A stretch of DNA of 64,000 nucleotides from Phytohabitans rumicis (GTDB lineage Bacteria; Actinomycetota; Actinomycetes; Mycobacteriales; Micromonosporaceae): the NCBI RefSeq assembly GCF_011764445.1, contig NZ_BLPG01000001.1, positions 3,844,001 through 3,908,000 on the forward strand, in the 5' to 3' direction. Positions 1 through 10,478 of the stretch are shown in pieces (within the stretch, counting starts at the first letter, position 1; each line of letters opens with the position of its first letter). The translations under genes were made by a program, and so were the position numbers. The notes beneath the pieces were generated by a model that was given only the letters and a program-made list of their open reading frames with translations, had not been told where the DNA came from and did not search any database.

Positions 1-429
1 GGCGCAGCGTCGGATCCACGGCTCAGTGATCGCGCCGCAGTCGTGGATGCCGACGAAGTGCAGCTGACCCCATTTGCGTTGTCCACATTTGCACGGCCGT
101 TCCAGGGACTTACCGATGCGTTTGCAGGCCCGGCACAGCCACACCTGCGGGTAGCGCTCGACCGTGACCCCGCGCCGCTCGTCGAGTTCGACGACCTCGA
201 TGGGGGTGCTGCGAAGCAAGTCGTCGCCCATACCGCCGTCGGTGCCGTGGGCGATCCATGCTCCCACCTCGCGGAGCAGGTGTCGGCGTACGAGGTCGGT
301 GTCGACCTCGATGGGACTCGGTGCCGACCATTCGGCGACCCGATAGATGTCGCCCCGCAGGTCGACCGTCTGGTCGGGCAAGAACGTACGCAGGATCTGA
401 CTGCCGCTACGGCTTCCGAGAACCGTCAT
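1..429 (-). CDS. drmB: DrmB-like DISARM protein (N-terminal part, runs off the window)
   Basis: An open frame begins at ATG 427-429 and stays open for 143 codons to the left edge, so only the N-terminus is visible. It starts 12 bases after the drmA stop, which suggests translational coupling in one operon. The visible protein has a Cys-rich zinc-ribbon-like stretch near residues 95-115 (WLCRACKRIG, then CKCG), followed by WGQLHFVGIHDCG. This arrangement resembles DrmB/DUF1998 proteins, which pair with the DrmA helicase in DISARM phage defence. The family call rests on this short segment plus position next to drmA. Any other zinc-ribbon partner of a helicase would be the alternative. The rest of the operon (for example drmC) would lie beyond the left edge. 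Confidence 0.6.
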   Translation of the reverse strand, partial: MTVLGSRSGSQILRTFLPDQTVDLRGDIYRVAEWSAPSPIEVDTDLVRRHLLREVGAWIAHGTDGGMGDDLLRSTPIEVVELDERRGVTVERYPQVWLCRACKRIGKSLERPCKCGQRKWGQLHFVGIHDCGAITEPWIRRCA

Positions 430-441
430 GTCGTCCGCCTG

Positions 442-3400
442 TCAGTCGTGAATGGGAGCGCTTGCCTCGACGTCGCGGAGGCTCATCATTGGGGAACGTG
501 GGCCGAGCTCGCTGACGTACTTTGCTTTGTTCGTGGGATCCTCAAGCTCGGCGAACCAGACCTGGACCCAGTCGGCGATTTGTTCGCGGTGCACCGTGTC
601 CTCGGCCCCGTCTAGGCCGAGCACTGTGGCGACGGCCGCCGACTCCGCCGCGGGTGTCATGCCAGAGTTGCGGGCGTAGTCACGCAGCTTTGCTGGTGTG
701 CTCAACCGCTGTCGGCTTGCTGGTTCACGGATCATCAACGTGCGCGCGCCAACCACGCCAGCGATCGTGAGCTCCAGGACGCGGCGGCTGCGGCGCGTGA
801 TGGGAATCGCGTCGACGAACCGGTCGCCCTGACGCACGTACTGCTCGAAGTGCCGGAACGTCTGAGCGTCCCGCTCCCGACCGATCTTGTGCAGCACGTA
901 CACCAACCCGGGATGTCTGCGTCCTACACGGGCAGTGGTCTGGATGAATTCCGCCGTCGTCAGCGGTAGGCCCAACATCACCATCGTGTTGAGCCGGTCG
1001 ACGTCGACGCCGTGGGAGAGCATCGAGCTGGCGGCGATGACGTGGATGCGCTCGGCGAAGTCGTCTTCCGGGTTCTCCAGCCGTTCGAGGATTGCACGGA
1101 CCTCGTCGAAGTCGGTCTGGCCGGTGAGCTGCTCGACGTTGATTCCCGCGACGGTGTTGTTGCTGCCGAGGCTGCGACCTGCAGCTTCCACGTCGTAAAG
1201 CGTCGTGCCGTAGACGACATCGGTGCCGTAGAGACTGATCAGCAGGTCCGCGTGCGTTTGGTCGATTCCCGCCTCGGCGCAAACCGTCGCCGGGTCGTCC
1301 ACCAGCTCCCGCACGCACCGCTGCAACGTGTCGAGGGTGCGGTCACTGACATGCTCCAGCGTCACGCCGCGGGGGCGACGGCCACGAAGCGGCGCAGTGG
1401 TGTGGTCGTCGGCGCGGTCCAAAACGACTCGCCAGCCCTCGGACCCGGCTGCGGGAACACACGCCCCTGCCGCTGGTAAAGCACATCGACCTGCCGGTCG
1501 TACCCAGTCAGCGTCGCGCTGCTCGCCACGATCTTCGCCCGCGTGCCGCACAGCTCGCGCTGCAGGTGGTCGAGCAGGCTTTCGTAGTGGGAATCGACCG
1601 CGCCTAGGCTGTCGCGCAGCAGGTGCAGCTCGTCCTGCAACCGCAGCGACGGCCCGAACCGCTTCGGATCGATCGGCAGCGGTTTGAGGAGGTTCCCACC
1701 CTGGCAGTTCGGCACCAGGCATCCGTTGGGTGTCGCCGACCGTTCGGCATAGGTGAAGCCGTGCCACGGCACCGGGCACACCTTCTGCGGCGGACCGACC
1801 AGACCCCGCATTGCCTGCTGTAGACCGATCGACGCCGCCTTGTCCAGGGTGCCGACCACCACTGTCGGCAGAAACCTGAACACCTCCTGGTCGACGACGT
1901 ACACCGGCAGGGCCTGCCCCTTCATGGGACAGGTCGGGCTGGTGCAGCGATGCTCGAGCTTCCACCGTTGGCGGTCGAACCGCATCTGGAGGTTTTCGTC
2001 GCGGCAGAAGGGGCAGTGCAGCAGCACCTGGTACTTGTCCGGCATCCCCGGGCTGTCCGGCGTGATCTCGTCGCCCTCCGTCTTGGGCACGATCCGGTTC
2101 GGGGTGCCGGCCCGGCCAACAAGGAAGCCGAGGCCGAACTGGGTGCCCCCGATGCCCTCTTCCTTGCGCACCATCTCTGCGCCAGCAAGCGCGTCGGCGA
2201 ACCGCTGGGTCTGCTGCAGGCTCAGCAGCCGTAGCGGAAACCGCGACCACGCCGTCACGCCCATGGTCTTGCCCGTAAGCCGATCGAAGAACGCCGCCGT
2301 CAGGAGCAGCCCCAGGTAGGTTTCCGTCTTGCCGCCACCGGTCGCGAACCACACCGTGTCGACGTAGCGGGCCTCGTCGTCAGGCTCAACGAGGAACCGG
2401 ACAGCCGACAACAGAAAGCCGACCTGGAACGGCCGCCAGACTGTGTATCCACGTCCCTCAGCGCTGCGGGCGATCGCCTTGTTCATCAGCTTGAACGCAC
2501 GAAGGATCTCCGGCCGGGTCCGCAGCAGCTCGAGTCCTACGCGCAAGCGCTCCAGCTCCGCGAACACCTCACCTGCCGACCGGTCCGCCTCGCCGCGCAT
2601 CTTGTCGGTCCATCCCTCAGCCGCCTGCCGTGCGCCCAGCACCGATGGCGACCAATGCGCGTCGTCGTACACGGCGAGCGCGTCCACCAGGGCGGCGAGC
2701 TGAGGGAGCGGGTCGTCCGCGAGTGTCGCGAACGACAGGTCTGGCGGCGCGTTCGTGCCGTGCCAGTAGGTAGGGCGGTAGGTCTGCACGCCCACCGTGT
2801 CGGATGTACGGAACACCCCCGGCGTCAGCGCCTCGATGCCGACATTCACCCCGTAGGCCGGCACGTTGCGGTCGTAGCGGAAGCTGTCCGGCAGTGTCTC
2901 CAACTGGAACGGCCTCGTCGGAAGGCCCGAGACCTGGATCTGGGTCTCGTACAGATGCGAGTCGGTCAGTCCCGGTGCCTTCTCCGGACTGGTGTTGACC
3001 AACTGCACCACCAGCTCGGTCTCCTTGTGCCAGTCCTCGACGTCGACCCGCACTTCGGCTGACAGACCCGGTGCGCCCACCGCCGCGAACGCATCTTCGA
3101 GCTGCTTGCGGCCGAAGGACCCGCCCTCCGCGCCGGTCATCACGGACACGACCTCTTCGACGAGGCCACTACGCCACCAACGCCGTTCCGGGTCTGGCCC
3201 GTCCTTGGGATCCTGCACCCAGGCCCTTGCCCGTACCGTCACCGTGATCGACCACGACGGCGCGTCGACCGGCCGCAGCCGGACGCCGATCGCACATGGG
3301 TCCAGGCGTTCCGAGCGCTCGTCAGCAGCACCTTTGCGAACCTCATCCTCGCAGGCGATCCGGCCCAGCCAGAACGTCCCGGACGGCGCCACCTCCAACC

Positions 3401-3503
3401 GGTCCAGCCCATCGCCCCGACCCGCCGCCACCACCCGACGGTCCAACCAAGCGACGAACGCCTCGCACGCCTGCTCCTCCGACTGGACCGCCACGCTGCT
3501 CAT
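442..3503 (-). CDS. drmA: DISARM-type helicase DrmA (one-base frameshift in assembly)
   Basis: Superfamily 2-like helicase of about 1020 residues once a single missing base is restored. The N-terminal frame runs from ATG 3503 with Walker A GGGKTE near residues 389-394, a Cys-rich insert (Cys 497, 500, 520, 525, then 595 and 600), a DELH box at 624-627 and SSATLTG at 661-667. It then stops early at 1362. The downstream frame carries the helicase C-terminal domain (SSMLSHGVDVDRLN, then QTTARVGRRHPG). The frames join at the G5 run 1371-1375: one more base gives VAPRGVTLEHV without a break. The ATG overlaps the stop of the upstream sigma gene (ATGA), and an AGGAAGG ribosome site lies inside that gene. 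The DELH box and helicase layout match DrmA of DISARM, which restricts phage together with DrmB and a methylase. The call is from motifs, not from a search. Confidence 0.75.
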
Positions 3504-5115
3504 GACGCCTTCCTCTCAACGGAGTCACCGGACCCGCCGGCCTTCGAATCGTCCATTAGGTACGACCGCAGCGCGGCCACTTGATCGCTCATCTGGAGCT
3601 TCTTCATTGAGCTGCCTTGGATCTGTCGTATGCGCTCCCGTGTGATGCCGTAGTCGACGCCGATGTCGTCCAACGTCTCTTCGTCGCCTGTACCCAGGCC
3701 AAACCTGCGTTCGATAACCCGCGCCGCCCGTTCCGGCAGGTGTGCCCTAAGCACGCGTGCGACATCACTGCGGAACGTGGCGTGTATGACGATCTCCGCC
3801 GGATCGGTGCGTCCGTCACGTTCTTCCTCGCTCACCAGGAGGTCCGACAGATGAAGGTCTCCTTCGTCTCCGAGAAGCGCGTCGAGGCTACGGGCCGGCT
3901 GCATCAGGTCCACCATGGACTGCACCTTCCCTGGATCCATGTCCGTCAACTGAGAAATTTCGTTCAGGGTTGGCTCCCTGTCGAGCCGCGCGGTGAGCGT
4001 CGAGATCGCCCTTCTGACCTTTTGTACCTGCTCGTGGACGTGGACGGGAATCCGGATCAACCTGCCTCGGTTCCCGATGCCGCGCTCGATCGCCTGCTTG
4101 ACCCACCAGGTCGCGTAGGTGGAGAACTTGAAGCCCTTCGACCCGTCAAACTTGCCGGCTGCATGCATCAGGCCAAGGTTGCCGTCTTGGATTCTGTCGG
4201 CAAACTCCACACCACTGGACTCGTAGTGCCTGGCCTTTGCGATCGAGACGACCAGTCGTAGGTTGGCGCAGACCAACTCAGCGTGGGCCTTACGCCCTGC
4301 CTCGACGCTGGTCAGCAGGCTTCGCCTGACGCCGGCGGTGGACTCGTCCAGACCCATCGCGTCGAGTTCCTGCTCGGCAGCTGCACCCCGCGTGATCAAC
4401 GACCACAGCTCGACCTCGCGCGCAGCATCGATCAACGGATACCGGTTGATCTCGCGTAGATAGTGGCCGATGGAGTCCCCTTGAAACTCGTAGCCCTTCA
4501 TGGTGGCTTTCAATGCTCGCGGGTTCGTGAGGTCGGGTAGGTCGACCCCCGCCTGCTCCAGAAGGTTCAGCAGCTCGCGGTATTGGTCGGAGGTGAGCTT
4601 CCGTTTGGTGGCCAGCAGTGACACTTCGGCATGGGTGAGCAGTCCACCCGTACGGGACCAATCGCCGAGGAGGTCGTCGAGCGCCCTGCCGACAACGTCG
4701 GCGGCGGGACGCATTGCCGGAGAATCCGGCTCCTGCCCGAACATCCACCCGAGGTAGTCGTCCGGCATCTCGGTCTCGTCCTCCGTGGCTTGGCCGGAAG
4801 ACTCAGATGTCCCAATCGCTTCAGTACGCGGGGTACGGTGACCAAGTTTTCATCGAGAAAGGGCGAATCTGGGGGCGACACCTTTACGACAGATGGAGAC
4901 GTGTCCCCGAGATCGTTCCGTGTCAGCGCGACCAGCAGTGCGTCGACGTCGCGGTGGGTAAGTCGGTGCCGGACGGCAAAGTCAGCTACGAGAGCGTGGG
5001 CCTGCTGGGCGCCACAGCGGTCGAGGAGGAGGCGAAGCTCGTCCGCTAGGGCGCGGATCATGTTGTGCCTCGCCCCTGCCGAGCGCTGCGCCGGCGATCG
5101 GGCCAACGTCGCCAT
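3500..5115 (-). CDS. Sigma-70 family factor heading the DISARM-like operon (one-base frameshift)
   Basis: Principal-type sigma factor of about 538 residues after restoring one base. The main frame contains region 1.2 (DSIGHYLREINRYPL), a full region 2 (NLRLVVSIAKARHY, DLIQ-like RIQDGNLGLMHA, then FSTYATWWVKQAIERG), region 3, and region 4 ending in TRERIRQIQ. The first ~90 residues lie in another frame from ATG 5113-5115, preceded by AGGAGG at 5121-5126; they look like a region 1.1-type helical domain. Adding one base in the G4 run 4830-4833 joins the frames as VTVPPRTEAIG. If there were no error, translation could instead start at ATG 4768, giving 422 residues. The gene overlaps drmA by four bases, so both are almost certainly cotranscribed. 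Its job is inferred: directing RNA polymerase to island promoters, or responding to infection. Confidence 0.8.
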
Positions 5116-5445
5116 TGTCGCCTCCTAACTTCCGGGAGGCCAATCGTAAGGATCGAGTCCGACAGAAGTATACGAAGGGAACAAGTGTTCGATAACGTCT
5201 CGAGGAAGCCGCGATGTATGCCTGTCGTTGATCTCCCGCTCGACCATTGCGGCAAATCCGCAGTTCAGGCAACTGACTCTGTGGCCGCTGCCCAATTGAA
5301 CCACCGCAAGATCTCTACTGGTGCGGGTTCATGCGATGTCAGGATCAGGACAGTGTGACTGACCGATCGGCGCTGACGCGATCGAACTTACGTCGGTCGG
5401 GCGTCGGACGTTCTCAAGGGCGGTTGATCTACTACAGTCCTCCAC
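5116..5445. promoter_or_regulatory. Divergent promoter region between sigma/drmA operon and methyltransferase
   Basis: This 330-base gap separates divergent genes and contains no supported ORF. On the minus strand a TATACT -10-like hexamer lies near 5166-5171, about 45 bases before the AGGAGG site of the sigma gene, without a clear -35. On the plus strand TACAGT at 5433-5438 sits seven bases before the methyltransferase ATG, and no ribosome site precedes that ATG, so a leaderless transcript is possible. The promoter calls are visual matches only. Confidence 0.35.
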
Positions 5446-6588
5446 ATGGCCGCCCACCCAGTCAAGATCTCCGCTGTTGATCTCTTCTGCGGTGTCGGCG
5501 GGCTATCCCACGGGTTACAGGACGCAGGCATTCACATCGCCGCCGGGATCGATCTCGACCCAGCCTGCGACTATCCCTACCGCACCAACGTCCGTGCGCC
5601 GTTCCACGAGCGCGATGTCCGCGACCTTGCCGTCAACGAGCTGGCAGCCATGTGGCCCGCTGGAGCCGTCCGCGTCCTGGCGGGGTGCGCGCCATGCCAA
5701 CCGTTCTCCTCGTACCGCCGCGGTGTCGATACCTCCCAAGAGGCTCAGTGGCCTCTGGTCGACGAGGTGCGCCGCTTGGTCGAAGGCACGTTGCCCGAGG
5801 TCGTCACGATGGAGAACGTCCCTCGCATCGGCAGCACTCCGATATTTACGGACTTCGTCGCGCGCCTGCGGAAGCTCGGGTACTTCGTGGACTTCGAGTC
5901 GTGCTACTGCCCGGCCTACGGTGTGCCACAGCACCGTCGACGAATGGTCCTCGTCGCCTCGTTGCTCGGCGGCATCACCGTGCCCAAGGGGACGACTGAA
6001 CCCACCGACTACCTCACCGTCCGCCAGGCCATCGGCAACCTGCCCGCGGTCAGCCATGGAGAGGTCCATCCCAGCGATCCACTCCACAAGAGCCGGACTC
6101 TGACGAAACCCAACCTCGAACGCATCAGGGCGTCTAAACCCGGCGGTACTTGGGAGGAGTGGCCCGAGGACCTGCGAGCCCCCTGCCACCGCAAGGCGTC
6201 GGGTGCGACTTTCCGCAACGTCTACGCCCGGATGGTCTGGGACGAGCCGTCCCCCACGATCACCACCCTGGCGTACAACTTCGGTACGGGACGGTTCGGG
6301 CACCCTGAGCAGGACCGAGCCATCACCCTCAGGGAGGCCGCGATCCTTCAGAGCTTCTCGTCGTACTACGAGTTTGTGGCGCCAGGGGAGCCGGTGCATT
6401 TCGTGACACTCGGCCGGCTCATCGGAAACGCGGTACCGCCACGGCTTGCTACCGCGGTCGGCGCGGCGATCGTCGATCATGTGAAGGCCACCAAGGGCCT
6501 CGTGCGGAAGGTTCCTCGGAACAAGTCCGTGCCCGTGGCGCGCCGAGAAGCACTGCGCGCAGCAGGTCACGGGAACAAGCGGGCTTGA
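5446..6588 (+). CDS. C5-cytosine-specific DNA methyltransferase (candidate DrmMII)
   Basis: Complete 380-residue C5-cytosine methyltransferase. Motif I is DLFCGVGGLS (12-21), motif IV is PCQPFSSY with catalytic Cys84, motif VI is ENVP (123-126), motif VIII is QHRRRM (162-167), a target-recognition region lies around 200-280, and motif X is GNAVPPRLA (328-336). The enzyme transfers methyl from S-adenosylmethionine to carbon 5 of cytosine in a specific sequence. It is divergent from the sigma/drmA/drmB operon, where a class 2 DISARM methylase (DrmMII) would mark self DNA. It is also followed within about 130 bases by an Mrr-like nuclease, so it could equally be the methylase of a type II system. 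Sequence alone does not decide between the two roles. Confidence 0.93.
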   Translation: MAAHPVKISAVDLFCGVGGLSHGLQDAGIHIAAGIDLDPACDYPYRTNVRAPFHERDVRDLAVNELAAMWPAGAVRVLAGCAPCQPFSSYRRGVDTSQEAQWPLVDEVRRLVEGTLPEVVTMENVPRIGSTPIFTDFVARLRKLGYFVDFESCYCPAYGVPQHRRRMVLVASLLGGITVPKGTTEPTDYLTVRQAIGNLPAVSHGEVHPSDPLHKSRTLTKPNLERIRASKPGGTWEEWPEDLRAPCHRKASGATFRNVYARMVWDEPSPTITTLAYNFGTGRFGHPEQDRAITLREAAILQSFSSYYEFVAPGEPVHFVTLGRLIGNAVPPRLATAVGAAIVDHVKATKGLVRKVPRNKSVPVARREALRAAGHGNKRA

Positions 6589-6706
6589 ACCGGCGGCCTT
6601 GCGGGTGTACGTCGCACTCGGCACCGGCCGCCATCCGATCGGTGTGAAGCCGCCAACGCCCGCCCTCCCACAGCAACCGGCAGTGGGTCATGTGCCACTC
6701 CACCGG

Positions 6707-6712
6707 CATAAT
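6707..6712 (+). promoter_or_regulatory. Possible -10 element for a leaderless endonuclease transcript
   Basis: The hexamer CATAAT lies seven bases before GTG 6719, the likely start of the endonuclease gene. This places the expected transcription start at the start codon itself, as in many leaderless actinobacterial mRNAs. No convincing -35 or ribosome site was seen. Confidence 0.3.
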
Positions 6713-6718
6713 GCGACG

Positions 6719-8040
6719 GTGGAGCCTCGACCGGTCAAGATCTACGACGTGCTTCGCTACGCGCGTGGCGCGAGTCCGGTCGAGATGGTGCTCGACGGCT
6801 ACTTGAACTACCACTTCCTGACATCCTCGCCGGATCTTCGCCGACCGAAGCTCATGCTGGAGCGTGGCATCAACGCCGCAGCCGCGGTGTCCGCGCCGGA
6901 CGGGCCGCGCCGACCGGTGATCGCGATAAGGTCCAGCCCCTGGAAGGCCGGGCACGCCTCCAATCCCTGGCACGACGAGTTCGACCTCGACCACGGCCAC
7001 GTGCGCTACTACGGCGATCACAAACCGACGACCGTGGGTCTGCCCGGCGCCACGGCCGGCAACCGGGCACTGCTGGAGGCGTGGAGCCTGCATGCGGGCA
7101 CGAGTAAGCGGGAGCGATCGCTGGCACCGCCACTGCTGCTATTCAGGTCGAGCACGGTCAACCAAGGCGGCCGGAGCATCGTCAAAGGACACGTCGAGTT
7201 CTGCGGCGTCGCCATCATCGAGCGCCTCGAGCACGTGGTGCAACGCGATCCGGCAAGCGGGCGAAGCTTCCCGAACATCGTCCTGGACCTCGCCGTGCTG
7301 GATCTGGCCGAGGCCGGGGACACCATCGATCTCCGCTGGATCGACGACCGTCGCAACGAGACACTCACCGTCACCCAAACTGCCCGACACGCACCCGCGT
7401 CATGGAACGTTTGGGTCGCACAGGGCAGAGCCTCGATCCCGCGAGTCCGGCGCCGCGTGGTTTCGTCACGCGTGAAAACGACCGAGGAACAACTGCCCGT
7501 CGCTGGTTCAGCCGAGGAGAGGCTGCTCGAGGAGCTCTACGCGTTCTTCGACGGCCGTAAGCACGCCTTCGAGATGCTCGCGTCCCGCGTAGCGGCGCAA
7601 GTGCTGGGAGGCTCGGGCGCGGTATATCGGGACGGCTGGCTGACCCGTGCAGGCGGAGACGGTGGCGTGGATTTTGTCGGGCGCTTGGACCTTGGTTCAC
7701 CCACGAGCAACACACCACTGATCGTCCTGGGACAGGCCAAGTGCGTCACTCCAAGGTCGTCCATCGGCCCCGATCAGGTGGCACGGGTGGTAGCCCGACT
7801 CCGTCGCGGATGGATCGGGGTCTTCGTCACAACCGGAGTCTTCTCAAGGCAGGCACAAATCGAGATCATCGACGACCAGTACCCCTGGTGCTGATCAACG
7901 GCCGCACACTCGTTGAGCAGGTGGTCCGGATGGCAGCCGCCGATCACGACAACGATCTTGGCGCACTGCTGCTCGCGGCCGCGGGCGAGTACGAGACGGC
8001 CGTGACTCATCGCCGACCGGAGGAAATCCTCTTCGGCTGA
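6719..8040 (+). CDS. Mrr-like restriction endonuclease (one-base frameshift near the C-terminus)
   Basis: Probable restriction endonuclease of about 440 residues. The N-terminal part (KIYDVLRYARGASPVEMVLD) resembles the DNA-recognition region of AspBHI-type enzymes. The C-terminal part has an Mrr/PD-(D/E)XK-like active site, GGDGGVDFVG followed by VLGQAK. The frame stops at 7894, but the next frame continues as LVLINGRTLVEQVVRMAA to 8040; one extra C in the C4 run 7882-7885 joins them (DQYPLVLING). GTG 6719 is preferred because the family-like sequence starts there and a -10 lies just ahead; an upstream TTG at 6599 is possible. It lies downstream of the C5 methyltransferase on the same strand, which suggests a restriction-modification pair. 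It might instead cut modified DNA, since AspBHI-type enzymes recognise methylcytosine. Confidence 0.7.
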
Positions 8041-8093: not shown

Positions 8094-9047
8094 TCAGGCG
8101 GCTTTGAAGACCGTGTCCAAGTGCCACTCGAGGAACTCCCGGTTCGGCCTGTCGGCACGCCGCTCGGGCACGGCTATGAGCTGACCGGCACGGGAGTAGA
8201 ACTGTTCGCCGTTGCCAAACTCCGCACGCAGCCGCGGGCTGACCAGCAGCCGATGCTTCGGATCCACGCCCAGGTACCCGCGGTCGTAGAGCGTGTGCAC
8301 ATCCGAGCGCAGCAGCAGACCGTTGTCCAGCCGGTGCTCGCCACCCTCCGGTAGCGGTCGGATATGTGCGGCCTGGAGGACCGGCCTGATCCTGCCGCCG
8401 GTGACCGCACAACGTTGGTGGTAGGCGCTAAGGACGACGGCTTGGAACGATTGTTGTCCCAGCCGTTGTGGCGTCAGGCGCGGATCCCCGTAGACCGGCC
8501 CGGGGCGATGCCATGGCGTACTGAGATCAACTTCGATCGGGCCGCCGACCAGGCGGGCCAGCAACTCGACGAAGTAGCCCTCGTACGAACGCACCGCCAG
8601 ATCGTAGCCCTTGCCCTGAACGATGTTCGGTGCGAACTCGGGCGGAGGGTCAGCCAGCGCGTCCTGGGAGAAGAAGACGACGTCGCGCACGAAGACGCAT
8701 CCGATCACCGGGTCCTCGTTCGGGTGGATCGGCACCCGCCGGTACTGGCCGACCCGGGTTCGCATCCGTTCAAGGCTGTCCACACCGTTTGCTTCGGCGA
8801 ACAGTTCCCACGCGGTCGAGATCGGCAACTGCGCGAAGCCGCTGTAGAAGCCGCCGCCAACGACCCGGTTGTCCGGGTAGTGGGTCTTGAAGAAGAACGG
8901 CTCGCCGGGAGTCAAGACCCGGAACTCGCGTCCGCCTCCCGGCCGCCAGAAGTTGACTTCAGCGAGCGACGGACGAGCGGCCAGGAACCGGTACCAGTCG
9001 CCGTCCGTGACCCCGACATAGGCCTTCACGCCGGCAGTCTGCACCAC
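8094..9047 (-). CDS. HNH endonuclease with N-terminal reader-like domain
   Basis: Protein of 317 residues. The C-terminal half has an HNH nuclease core: YHQRCAVTG, QAAHIRPLPEGG, LDNGLLLRSDVHTLYD. The N-terminal ~180 residues (YVGVTDGDWYRFLAARPSL, then TPGEPFFFKTHYP and FYSGFAQLPISTAWELF) are the type found in proteins annotated as HNH endonucleases with a PUA/EVE- or SRA-like fold that may read modified bases. The gene is convergent with the Mrr-like endonuclease (53-base gap). It probably cleaves invading DNA, perhaps depending on modification, but its substrate cannot be read from the sequence. Start choice follows the longest open frame. Confidence 0.75.
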   Translation of the reverse strand: MVQTAGVKAYVGVTDGDWYRFLAARPSLAEVNFWRPGGGREFRVLTPGEPFFFKTHYPDNRVVGGGFYSGFAQLPISTAWELFAEANGVDSLERMRTRVGQYRRVPIHPNEDPVIGCVFVRDVVFFSQDALADPPPEFAPNIVQGKGYDLAVRSYEGYFVELLARLVGGPIEVDLSTPWHRPGPVYGDPRLTPQRLGQQSFQAVVLSAYHQRCAVTGGRIRPVLQAAHIRPLPEGGEHRLDNGLLLRSDVHTLYDRGYLGVDPKHRLLVSPRLRAEFGNGEQFYSRAGQLIAVPERRADRPNREFLEWHLDTVFKAA

Positions 9048-9317
9048 GCAACGTCAGTACGCCAGCACCCCGCCGTCAGGCCAGGCAACATGACCGAAGC
9101 GGCCAGAACTCACGTTGGTCGGGCCACGCGTACGCCCTTACCACGCCCAAGCACGGCGGACTTACACGGAGTGCGCCGGACCGCCTTTGACCACACGCGA
9201 CTCGTGCATCTTTGAATTGACCTCGATATCGTCTTGGCCAGAAGTGCCCTCGAACAAGATCGCCGCGGGCGTGTCACGTATCGCTAGAGAGATCCCCTAA
9301 GGAATGGGTGGAGTTCT

Positions 9318-10478
9318 ATGTGGGCTAGCGCCCTTTACTACCCCTATATGCGGGTTCGGGACACGGACTGGCTCAAGGTCGCTGCCCTGTACTGGGATTC
9401 GATGCACCGGTTCCAGCCGCACGGCTACGACCTCAGGGACACGGCAGATGGCCGGGCCTTCGCTGAGGCAGGATTCCTACGCCAGCTCGATCCCTCTCCG
9501 TATGCCCGCGACGTGGCGCTCGAGCTGCTGGGCTTCATGCGCGCCAACCGGCAGGCGCTGCAGCGTCGCTTCAGCGTCCACAACTTGGAACCATCCCCGG
9601 CCATCGGCCGTCGCTGGGGGTTCGAAGGGCCCGGCTGGGGTGACTCGCACCTCGGGTGGATCCATGGGAGCAAGATGAGCTACTCCTTCGCGGGCGCCTT
9701 GGCCGACTCCGGGCTAGCGCACATAGGCCGCGGACATGACGCGCAATGGGTCGGTGTACATCCGACTCTGGCTGCCGCCTACATGCTGGCACTCACCAGC
9801 GCCTGCGCTGCGCACGATCAGCTTGAGCCGGTCACCGACGAGCCCGTGTCACACCTGTCACCGGCGTCGGGTGTCGAATCGGCGATGCGGCTACTCAGCG
9901 ACGACGCTGAGCTCGCGAGCTATCGCGAATACGGTGTTGACACCACCGCCGGATTTGCGATGCTCGCGATCGAGTCGGTAGTGCCGCGCGACCTAGGTGC
10001 CATCAGTGTGGAACGTATTCTCGCGATCCGCGACAAGCTCACTGAGGAGTTGGGGACTTTTCGGGAGTTCGTCGCATCGCAGCAGCAAGAGTTGGAGCGC
10101 CTCGCAAGCATACGCGCTGACAGCGTCCGCACCGAGGCACTCGCTACGCACCTCGACAAGGAGATCAAACGGCGCGTCGAGCGGCTGGACCGCGGACTGC
10201 GGAGCCTGGGCTACGACACCGCTAGATCGCTACTCACGACACAAACCGTCACTCCGCCAGTGCTTGCGGTTGCGGGTGCCAATCTTGCCGATGCGCCGCC
10301 CGCCGTGGCGACCGTCGGAGCCGTAGGTCTGTTGGTCGGTACGGCGTGGTGGCAGCTCGTCAAAAATCGTGAGCAACAGCTGCGCGCCTCGCCCACCGGC
10401 TACCTGCTGGCCGTCAAGCGGGCGCTGAAGGCGCGGACCGTCACAGACCGCATGGCGAAGCTACTCCGTAAGGCCTGA
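9318..10478 (+). CDS. DUF6236-like protein of unknown function
   Basis: Protein of 386 residues starting at ATG 9318, with a GGTGGAG ribosome site ahead. The N-terminus (LYYPYMRVRDTDWLKVAALYW) matches the pattern of the DUF6236 family as I know it; this family has no established function. The middle is largely helical and acidic, residues about 230-300 form a probable coiled coil with many Glu, Arg and Lys, and a short hydrophobic stretch around 325-350 (VATVGAVGLLVGTAWW) could be a membrane segment. It lies alone between the HNH nuclease and the integrase inside the island, so a role in defence or element biology is possible but inferred only from position. Confidence 0.6.
   Translation: MWASALYYPYMRVRDTDWLKVAALYWDSMHRFQPHGYDLRDTADGRAFAEAGFLRQLDPSPYARDVALELLGFMRANRQALQRRFSVHNLEPSPAIGRRWGFEGPGWGDSHLGWIHGSKMSYSFAGALADSGLAHIGRGHDAQWVGVHPTLAAAYMLALTSACAAHDQLEPVTDEPVSHLSPASGVESAMRLLSDDAELASYREYGVDTTAGFAMLAIESVVPRDLGAISVERILAIRDKLTEELGTFREFVASQQQELERLASIRADSVRTEALATHLDKEIKRRVERLDRGLRSLGYDTARSLLTTQTVTPPVLAVAGANLADAPPAVATVGAVGLLVGTAWWQLVKNREQQLRASPTGYLLAVKRALKARTVTDRMAKLLRKA

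Follow-up and report, generated by a model that had tools for sequence, protein, structure and literature searches.

A sigma-70-family gene at the head of a DISARM-like operon in Phytohabitans rumicis and in related drmA loci

Gene organization of the locus

The DNA analysed (the window) is a stretch of 64 000 nucleotides from the genome of Phytohabitans rumicis (G000:C1:3844001-3908000; genome in 3 contigs, completeness 96%). The system described here is the operon at its left end, which opens with a gene for a sigma-70-family factor. A sequence-only reading of this DNA had reported a sigma factor with regions 1.2 to 4, an ATGA overlap and then genes for a DrmA-like helicase and a DrmB-like protein, and all of these were seen at this place, on the minus strand. 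The features are as follows.

3500–5115, minus strand: gene for the sigma-70-family factor, heading the operon; the open reading frame (ORF) 3500–4768 covers regions 1.2 to 4 and the rest, up to 5115, is in another frame.
3500–3503, minus strand: ATGA overlap of the sigma stop with the drmA start, from ORF coordinates and sequence.
442–3503, minus strand: drmA, encoding a DISARM-type SF2 helicase, from the frame 1362–3503 and the 3′ part of 442–2352.
1–429, minus strand: 5′ end of drmB, which runs past the window edge to L002:13243-15429.

The sigma ORF 3500–4768 scored above the Pfam cut-offs for region 1.2 (35.5 bits), region 2 (54.8 bits), region 3 (49.3 bits) and region 4 (45.9 bits). The assignment of the helicase to the DrmA family was borne out by the PADLOC hidden Markov model (HMM) for DrmA, with 252 bits for the 713-residue ORF 1362–3503 and 95 bits for the second drmA piece. 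The ATGGGKTE motif of DrmA is invariant across four homologues, and the only PDB match of DrmA from the intact relative L039 is the DrmA of entry 7s9v (E = 7.9e-50). On the PADLOC model DrmB scored 45 bits in this genome and 105 bits in L039, whose DrmB matches 7s9v_B (E = 2.5e-6), with the C-terminal cysteines conserved.

The operon continues past the left edge of the window, in the genome stretch labelled L002, with the rest of drmB, the gene for a DrmD-type SNF2 helicase (985 residues; PADLOC, 296 bits) and that for a type IIG-like methylase of 1628 residues (1412 bits on the PADLOC type IIG model, 181 bits on DrmMI). A gene for a Vsr endonuclease lies convergently between drmB and drmD (L002:13222-13698; Pfam Vsr, 67 bits), and vsr occupies that position in 12 of the 15 relatives compared. 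The extent of 1–5115 given by the sequence-only reading has to be amended accordingly: at position 5115 begins that part of the sigma gene which lies in the other frame, and the window cuts the operon, in which vsr, drmD and the gene for the 1628-residue methylase follow.

Against intact relatives the copy in this genome changes frame. The sigma gene is matched in two frames by the intact L045, with the change between about 4786 and 4912, and a second relative, L046, places it between about 4786 and 4831. drmA is matched in two frames by L045 DrmA (83% and 81% identity; change between about 1371 and 1455), and drmB is also two-framed against L045, with the change outside the window at about 13951 of L002. 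The sigma gene, drmA and drmB are each one ORF in intact relatives, the sigma gene being a single ORF in L038 and L039. The conclusions drawn here about function are based on these intact relatives.

Conservation and co-inheritance of the sigma–drmA pair

A search of genome contigs with a DrmA alignment gave 268 encoded relatives, of which the best 80 were analysed. The sigma/drmA adjacency, which the sequence-only reading had proposed to seek in other genomes, is genuine and occurs widely: 43 of these 80 loci carry a sigma gene upstream of drmA in the same orientation. With this and the DrmA match of the helicase, neither of the two results that the sequence-only reading had named as refuting it came up. 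The nearest drmA start is at most 34 bases from the sigma stop in 42 of the 43 (L089 has a gap of 337), and in 22 that start overlaps the stop by four bases; the script picked the drmA start as the one nearest to the sigma stop, and the choice of start is thus not independent. The upstream arrangement is also present on a Roseomonas plasmid (L154), where the sigma-70 factor and a helicase-related protein were annotated independently. A second arrangement, with the sigma gene beyond drmB on the opposite strand and beside a gene for a NERD-UvrD helicase, was found in four of the 80 loci (L080, L084, L088 and L103) and on plasmid L155 of Burkholderia aenigmatica, whose annotation names a sigma factor and a NERD helicase.

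No sigma gene was found in 33 of the 80 loci, namely 20 distant relatives (L104–L123) and 13 nearer ones (L060, L075–L079, L081–L083, L086, L096, L100 and L102), some of which are cut short. None of the 20 distant DrmA loci gave a sigma match, L112 and L114 among them holding less than 1 kb upstream; absence is less certain in the shortened loci L079, L086, L102, L112 and L114. No second sigma gene was found at any locus. Bearers of the pair belong to five phyla: Actinomycetota and Pseudomonadota and, on contigs of metagenome-assembled genomes only, Myxococcota, Acidobacteriota and Planctomycetota. An earlier class-wide search had given a DrmA match in 64 of 394 genomes, with loci taken with 1.5 kb flanks; a sigma gene was seen only in L004 and L005, plus copies of the window's own locus. 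Among six longer stretches from that search it was seen only in L038 and L039, the same two as L004 and L005.

A quick tree of DrmA (89 rows, with long-branch warnings) placed all 52 sigma-linked rows and 14 sigma-less rows in one 66-row clade with a support of 100. Twelve of the 14 form a subclade (11 distinct loci), the other two being L060 and L079. In this sigma-less sister subclade DrmC was found in nine of the 11 loci and a DrmE-like gene in six; the DrmE-like protein x774 is a weak match, under both curated cut-offs (23 of 80 and 14 of 27). In the sigma tree a single branch, with support 98/92, parts the 52 defence sigmas from 26 host sigmas. The host rows were 24 sigmas from loci found in the genome search, a part of the sigmas of each genome, plus E. 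coli RpoD and RpoS. Nine fetched host rows duplicated defence rows and were removed, L037 (a long branch resembling extracytoplasmic function sigmas) was left out, and L038 and L047, which are one genome, are counted twice among the 52. An earlier quick tree that included L037 gave the separating branch a support of only 58. Derivation of the defence sigma from each host's own RpoD was ruled out, as no defence sigma fell among the host sigmas.

The trees of sigma and DrmA that the sequence-only reading had called for match one another: pairwise distances correlate with r = 0.96 over 50 loci and 0.85 over the 31 that lie outside the window's subclade, and none of 2000 permutations reached either value. 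Common descent of the hosts contributes to the correlation; the Micromonosporaceae still fall into two separate groups in both trees. Judged from these distances and trees, the sigma gene is co-inherited with drmA/drmB.

The loci of the second arrangement (L080, L084, L088, L103 and L155) carry the sigma gene in a NERD-UvrD helicase operon facing drmB, and their sigmas form one tight clade. Where other loci carry the sigma gene, L097 has a Fic-family gene (L097:16337-17578), which overlaps the gene for the NERD helicase.

The sigma protein

Residues were scored against E. coli RpoD numbering in the 52 defence and 26 host sigmas, using the roles in melting, −35 reading and core contact that we take these positions to have. 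D403, Q406, Y430, W434, E585, R588 and Q589 are kept in all 52 defence sigmas and W433, Q437, R441 and R584 in 51, which places the melting residues (Y430, W433 and W434) and the −35 residues (R584, E585, R588 and Q589) at 51 or 52 throughout, and, of the region 2.2 core-contact residues, which are retained only in part, D403 and Q406 at 52. T440, which presumably helps to read the −10, is T in nine of 52 defence sigmas (most often E) versus 24 of 26 host sigmas. A region-1.1-like helical stretch precedes region 1.2 in the defence sigmas, and those of the window's subclade have an additional N-terminal helical stretch. The AlphaFold model of the L039 sigma has a mean pLDDT of 75.8 and a pTM of 0.46, and its best Foldseek matches are SigA/HrdB chains. 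At the level of residues, then, the protein has those of a promoter-opening, −35-reading sigma; the retained melting and −35 residues, together with the SigA/HrdB-like model, speak for a functional factor that recognises promoters rather than for a degenerate domain.

Promoter region

Two elements lie upstream of the sigma gene.

5179–5191, minus strand: LexA/SOS-type box CGAACACTTGTTC, ahead of the start of the sigma gene; from a pattern search of this genome and a conserved block in relatives.
5143–5164, minus strand: recA-P1/PafBC-type promoter element TGTCGGACTCGATCCTTACGAT, with its −10 at 5143–5148 and the spacing of the genome's own recA promoter.

Promoter motifs were compared, as the sequence-only reading had suggested. 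Within the window's subclade, the aligned regions that precede the sigma gene share one strongly conserved block, and no common promoter emerged when the upstream regions of four other groups were aligned. GAAC-N4-GTTC occurs in 11 of 19 subclade loci, with 0.6 expected over all 46 regions, and the ten matches to GAACAN2TGTTC in 968 kb all lie upstream of these sigma genes. The conserved box fits the Streptomyces LexA consensus, which the accessible text of PMC9380542 gives for S. venezuelae as tCGAAC-N4-GNNCGa. Beside the box, TGTCR-N11-TANNNT was found in 13 of 20 subclade loci versus 0.25 expected; it fits the capital letters, not the 'gtg', of the mycobacterial P1 consensus, tTGTCRgtg-8 nt-TannnT in the accessible part of PMC5656591. 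The window genome's own lexA (CGAACAGAAGTTC and CGAACGGACGTAC) and recA promoter (TGTCAGACCCAGCGCCTAGCGT, the counterpart of TGTCGGACTCGATCCTTACGAT in the operon) share the operon's LexA-type and P1-type elements. A lone LexA-type box counts for little, because CGAACNNNNGTTC is frequent in this genome (51 occurrences on one strand and 48 on the other, versus 23 and 13 for the reversed pattern); it is the conservation that counts.

Control of the operon by a DNA-damage-type promoter is plausible from these motifs within the window's subclade. The sequence-only suggestion of an infection-induced switch is upheld to that extent: the LexA-type box and P1-type element support a DNA-damage switch and so make induction by infection plausible, in the window's subclade only. 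SOS control as a general trait was ruled out beyond it, the box being found in none of 27 loci.

Other patterns were also sought. CTGTN8ACAG gave no matches; GTTCN7GTTC gave three, all in Salinispora and overlapping the LexA-type box. A search for TTGACA/TATAAT upstream of the sigma genes yielded no consistent site, and a search between vsr and drmD for a promoter specific to the sigma gave nothing convincing. Contig C2 of the window's genome encodes a second LexA-type DNA-binding domain (G000:C2:1005094-1005276).

Partner genes and DISARM membership

On the other side of the promoter region are the following plus-strand features.

5433–5438, plus strand: putative methylase −10, TACAGT, 7 bases before the ATG, a position it holds in 10 of 13 loci.
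5446–6588, plus strand: gene for a DrmMII-like C5-cytosine DNA methylase, divergent from sigma (PADLOC DrmMII, 316 bits; Pfam DNA_methylase, 154 bits).
6599–7894, plus strand: gene for an AspBHI-like modification-dependent restriction endonuclease (PADLOC mREase_II, 577 bits; Pfam RE_AspBHI_N and Mrr_cat).

The methylase transcript is probably leaderless, to judge from the −10-like hexamer, and the C5 methylase gene holds an equivalent divergent position in L038 and L039. The partners of the core genes (C5 methylase, Vsr, NERD-UvrD, SRA-HNH, DrmD and IIG) differ by clade. With a threshold of 60 bits, the C5 methylase was found in ten of the 17 loci of the subclade, in 24 of the 27 others that have the sigma gene upstream and in all five NERD-type loci, and DrmD, among sigma loci, in 13 of 17 in the subclade and one of 27 others. 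Four Salinispora loci (L051, L052, L054 and L057) have, of the parts searched, only sigma–drmA–drmB behind the conserved promoter block, and none of the methylases searched.

DISARM class 1 is marked by the DrmD SNF2 helicase and class 2 by DrmE. An HMM built from nine sister-clade DrmC sequences, which matches its nine source loci and, weakly, L118 and L123, detected DrmC in no sigma locus and not in the window genome's own stretch; no sigma locus matched the DrmE-like x774. The traits of DISARM that are present are a DrmA helicase, a separate DUF1998-type DrmB and methylases (DrmMII-like and DrmMI-related). The scores stay below the NCBIfam DISARM cut-offs, at 349 of 950 for DrmA, 59 of 240 for DrmB and 325 of 610 for DrmD. 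The term 'DISARM-like' used by the sequence-only reading is therefore correct; 'DISARM' would be too strong, because these cut-offs are not reached and DrmC is absent from the sigma loci.

Some neighbouring genes are recorded for completeness. AspBHI-like nucleases cut DNA bearing methylated cytosine, which makes a C5 methylase gene directly before one an odd pairing. The pairing was not found in relatives, and the nuclease had no tblastn match in L038–L043 or L044–L123 at the thresholds used. Downstream of it, 8364–10478 of the window holds an ORF without a family match and a DUF6236 gene. Past the type IIG-like gene, L002:203-4852 has four ORFs, none matching Pfam or PADLOC. In two relatives (L089:14765-15610 and L095:14691-15551) an SRA-HNH protein, a modified-base reader joined to a nuclease, is encoded directly 3′ of drmB.

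Proposed mechanism and alternatives

The sequence evidence leaves us evenly divided on the reading that we put forward, a DISARM-family (DrmA/DrmB) defence with a dedicated sigma factor that serves the defence and is damage-induced in the window's subclade. There, the C5 methylase would be made from its own constitutive promoter and would mark host DNA. LexA and the recA-P1-type promoter would hold down expression of the sigma–drmA–drmB–drmD–methylase operon until relieved by DNA damage, such as that caused by an infecting phage. Newly made sigma would then join the RNA polymerase core and direct it to promoters most likely serving defence, either as feed-forward or to allow expression once phage disables the housekeeping sigma, and DrmAB with its methylase and nuclease partners would attack unmarked DNA. 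We infer constitutive methylation with damage-induced effectors, for the window's subclade, because the methylase has its own −10-like TACAGT and the effectors sit behind a damage-type promoter.

Several observations weigh against this reading. The window copy has three frame changes, one each in sigma, drmA and drmB, and the system in the source strain may be dead or the assembly wrong. Two core-contact positions of the sigma are not conserved, L402 being present in three of 52 and N409 in 23 of 52. The exact GAAC-N4-GTTC box is missing in eight of 19 subclade loci and in all 27 others, and the P1-type element was found in only three of 27 other loci (L069, L089 and L095). In L060 the sigma gene has been lost, and the methylase, LexA-type box, P1-type element and drmA remain; since its promoter is kept without sigma, the host can probably read it. 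No conserved sigma-specific promoter was found in the upstream regions examined, and the related loci are not mutually independent. The sequence-only proposal was that the sigma factor controls, or is controlled by, the defence genes; its first half, control by the sigma, is weakened by the lack of a sigma-specific promoter and by L060. That the frame changes are true mutations, and the system of the source strain a decaying remnant, is a serious possibility that we put a little short of even: three successive genes are affected, but drmD, the gene for the 1628-residue methylase and the C5 methylase gene are all open beside them, and a genome in 3 contigs at 96% completeness may mean long-read indel errors.

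Chance adjacency, or mere neighbourhood in an island without a functional link, would fit the shuffling of genes in defence islands and the lack of sigma in L060 and the sister clade; it is highly improbable, because 43 of the 80 related loci share the gene order and the 20 distant loci have no sigma match, and the trees match. It is unlikely, as we see it, that the sigma is a backup that replaces a phage-inhibited or diverted housekeeping sigma, keeping transcription going or reprogramming the infected cell. Being RpoD-like, with a region-1.1-like N-terminus, intact melting and −35 residues and a changed T440, it could read housekeeping-like promoters, and no system-specific promoter was seen, but this role alone does not account for the persistence of the sigma beside DrmA/DrmB in five phyla. 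By analogy with the TBP proteins of TALON/TOTE systems (for TALON, PMC12458937, accessible part), the sigma might instead be a recognition subunit of an immune complex that brings DrmAB to invader promoters or melted DNA, with or without RNA polymerase. It is the most constant partner of DrmAB, coupled by short overlaps, and takes the position that a DrmE-like gene holds in six of 11 sister-clade loci; a sigma factor is likewise part of MZA (PMC9523054, accessible part), and DrmAB loads on single-stranded ends (PMC9142583, accessible part). We nevertheless consider this role distinctly unlikely: −35-reading residues would be superfluous in a pure adaptor, yet they are kept, and in five loci the sigma gene belongs to another operon, together with the gene for a NERD helicase. 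A long shot on the same analogy is a sigma-guided immune machine, in which sigma, alone or as holoenzyme, would recognize promoters or bubbles of incoming DNA and hand the melted strand to DrmAB. Promoter recognition would then replace DrmE/DrmC-type parts in target recognition, with the MZA sigma and the TALON TBP as parallel cases.

The significance of the dedicated, damage-induced sigma that we put forward lies in regulation. To our knowledge, defence systems are mostly described as lists of parts and rarely encode their own switch-on mechanism. Here the steadiest partner of DrmA/DrmB in the clade is a sigma factor, which would mean either a built-in transcription programme or a promoter-recognizing part of immunity; this may be an immune system switched on during infection. 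The DNA-damage-type promoter of the window's subclade makes the built-in programme directly testable.

Comparison with known systems

MZA (MzaABCDE) is a defence system that includes a sigma factor (PMC9523054, accessible text), and the present system resembles it in that a sigma-70-family protein (MzaA in MZA, NCBIfam NF041931) belongs to the defence. It differs in that the NF041931 score is 266 of 800 bits, with the match confined to the sigma domain. On the PADLOC MzaA model a host HrdB-like sigma scored 209 and E. coli RpoD 250, versus 161–175 for the window-group sigmas and 136 in L087. Other Mza proteins were absent among the neighbours scanned. MZA membership was ruled out, the MzaA match being that of a generic sigma domain and host sigmas scoring higher on the PADLOC model.

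Systems with YprA-family helicases (ARMADA, BRIGADE and TALON) are surveyed in PMC12458937, whose accessible text gives TALON a TBP and a NERD nuclease and contains no sigma factor, the word 'sigma' occurring twice there as the name of a reagent supplier. The present system shares with them a YprA-family helicase partnered by an SNF2 helicase and a methylase and, with TALON, a promoter-binding protein (TBP in TALON) within the system. Unlike in the helicases of the ARMADA/Druantia type, the DUF1998 module is not fused; drmA and drmB are separate as in DISARM. In the BREX survey (PMC12839542, accessible part) a sigma-like helix–turn–helix is described in BrxL only. The box and element upstream of the sigma gene match the consensus, and the genome's own lexA and recA, as in the actinobacterial DNA-damage regulon (LexA and PafBC/P1); unlike in the typical regulon, the putative sites front a defence operon and the 'gtg' of P1 is unmatched.

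The accessible parts of PMC13118837, PMC12715929, PMC12707154 and PMC10924106 contain no DISARM sigma factor, and a literature search whose coverage left out most subscription papers found no DISARM or DrmA system with one, in agreement with the sequence-only reading, which knew of no DISARM type with its own sigma. The components of DISARM and the loading of DrmAB on single-stranded ends are described in PMC9142583 (accessible text). Like DISARM, the present system has a DrmA-family helicase, a separate DrmB-family protein and a DrmMII-like C5 methylase, to which the window's subclade adds DrmD and a methylase related to DrmMI. Unlike DISARM, it has its own sigma factor, lacks DrmC at the sigma loci searched, scores under the NCBIfam cut-offs and carries Vsr, a NERD-UvrD helicase, SRA-HNH or DrmD plus IIG genes instead. 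The DISARM-like system that includes a sigma factor, and in the window's subclade a DNA-damage-type promoter, is thus a real and conserved variant, and apparently an undescribed one.

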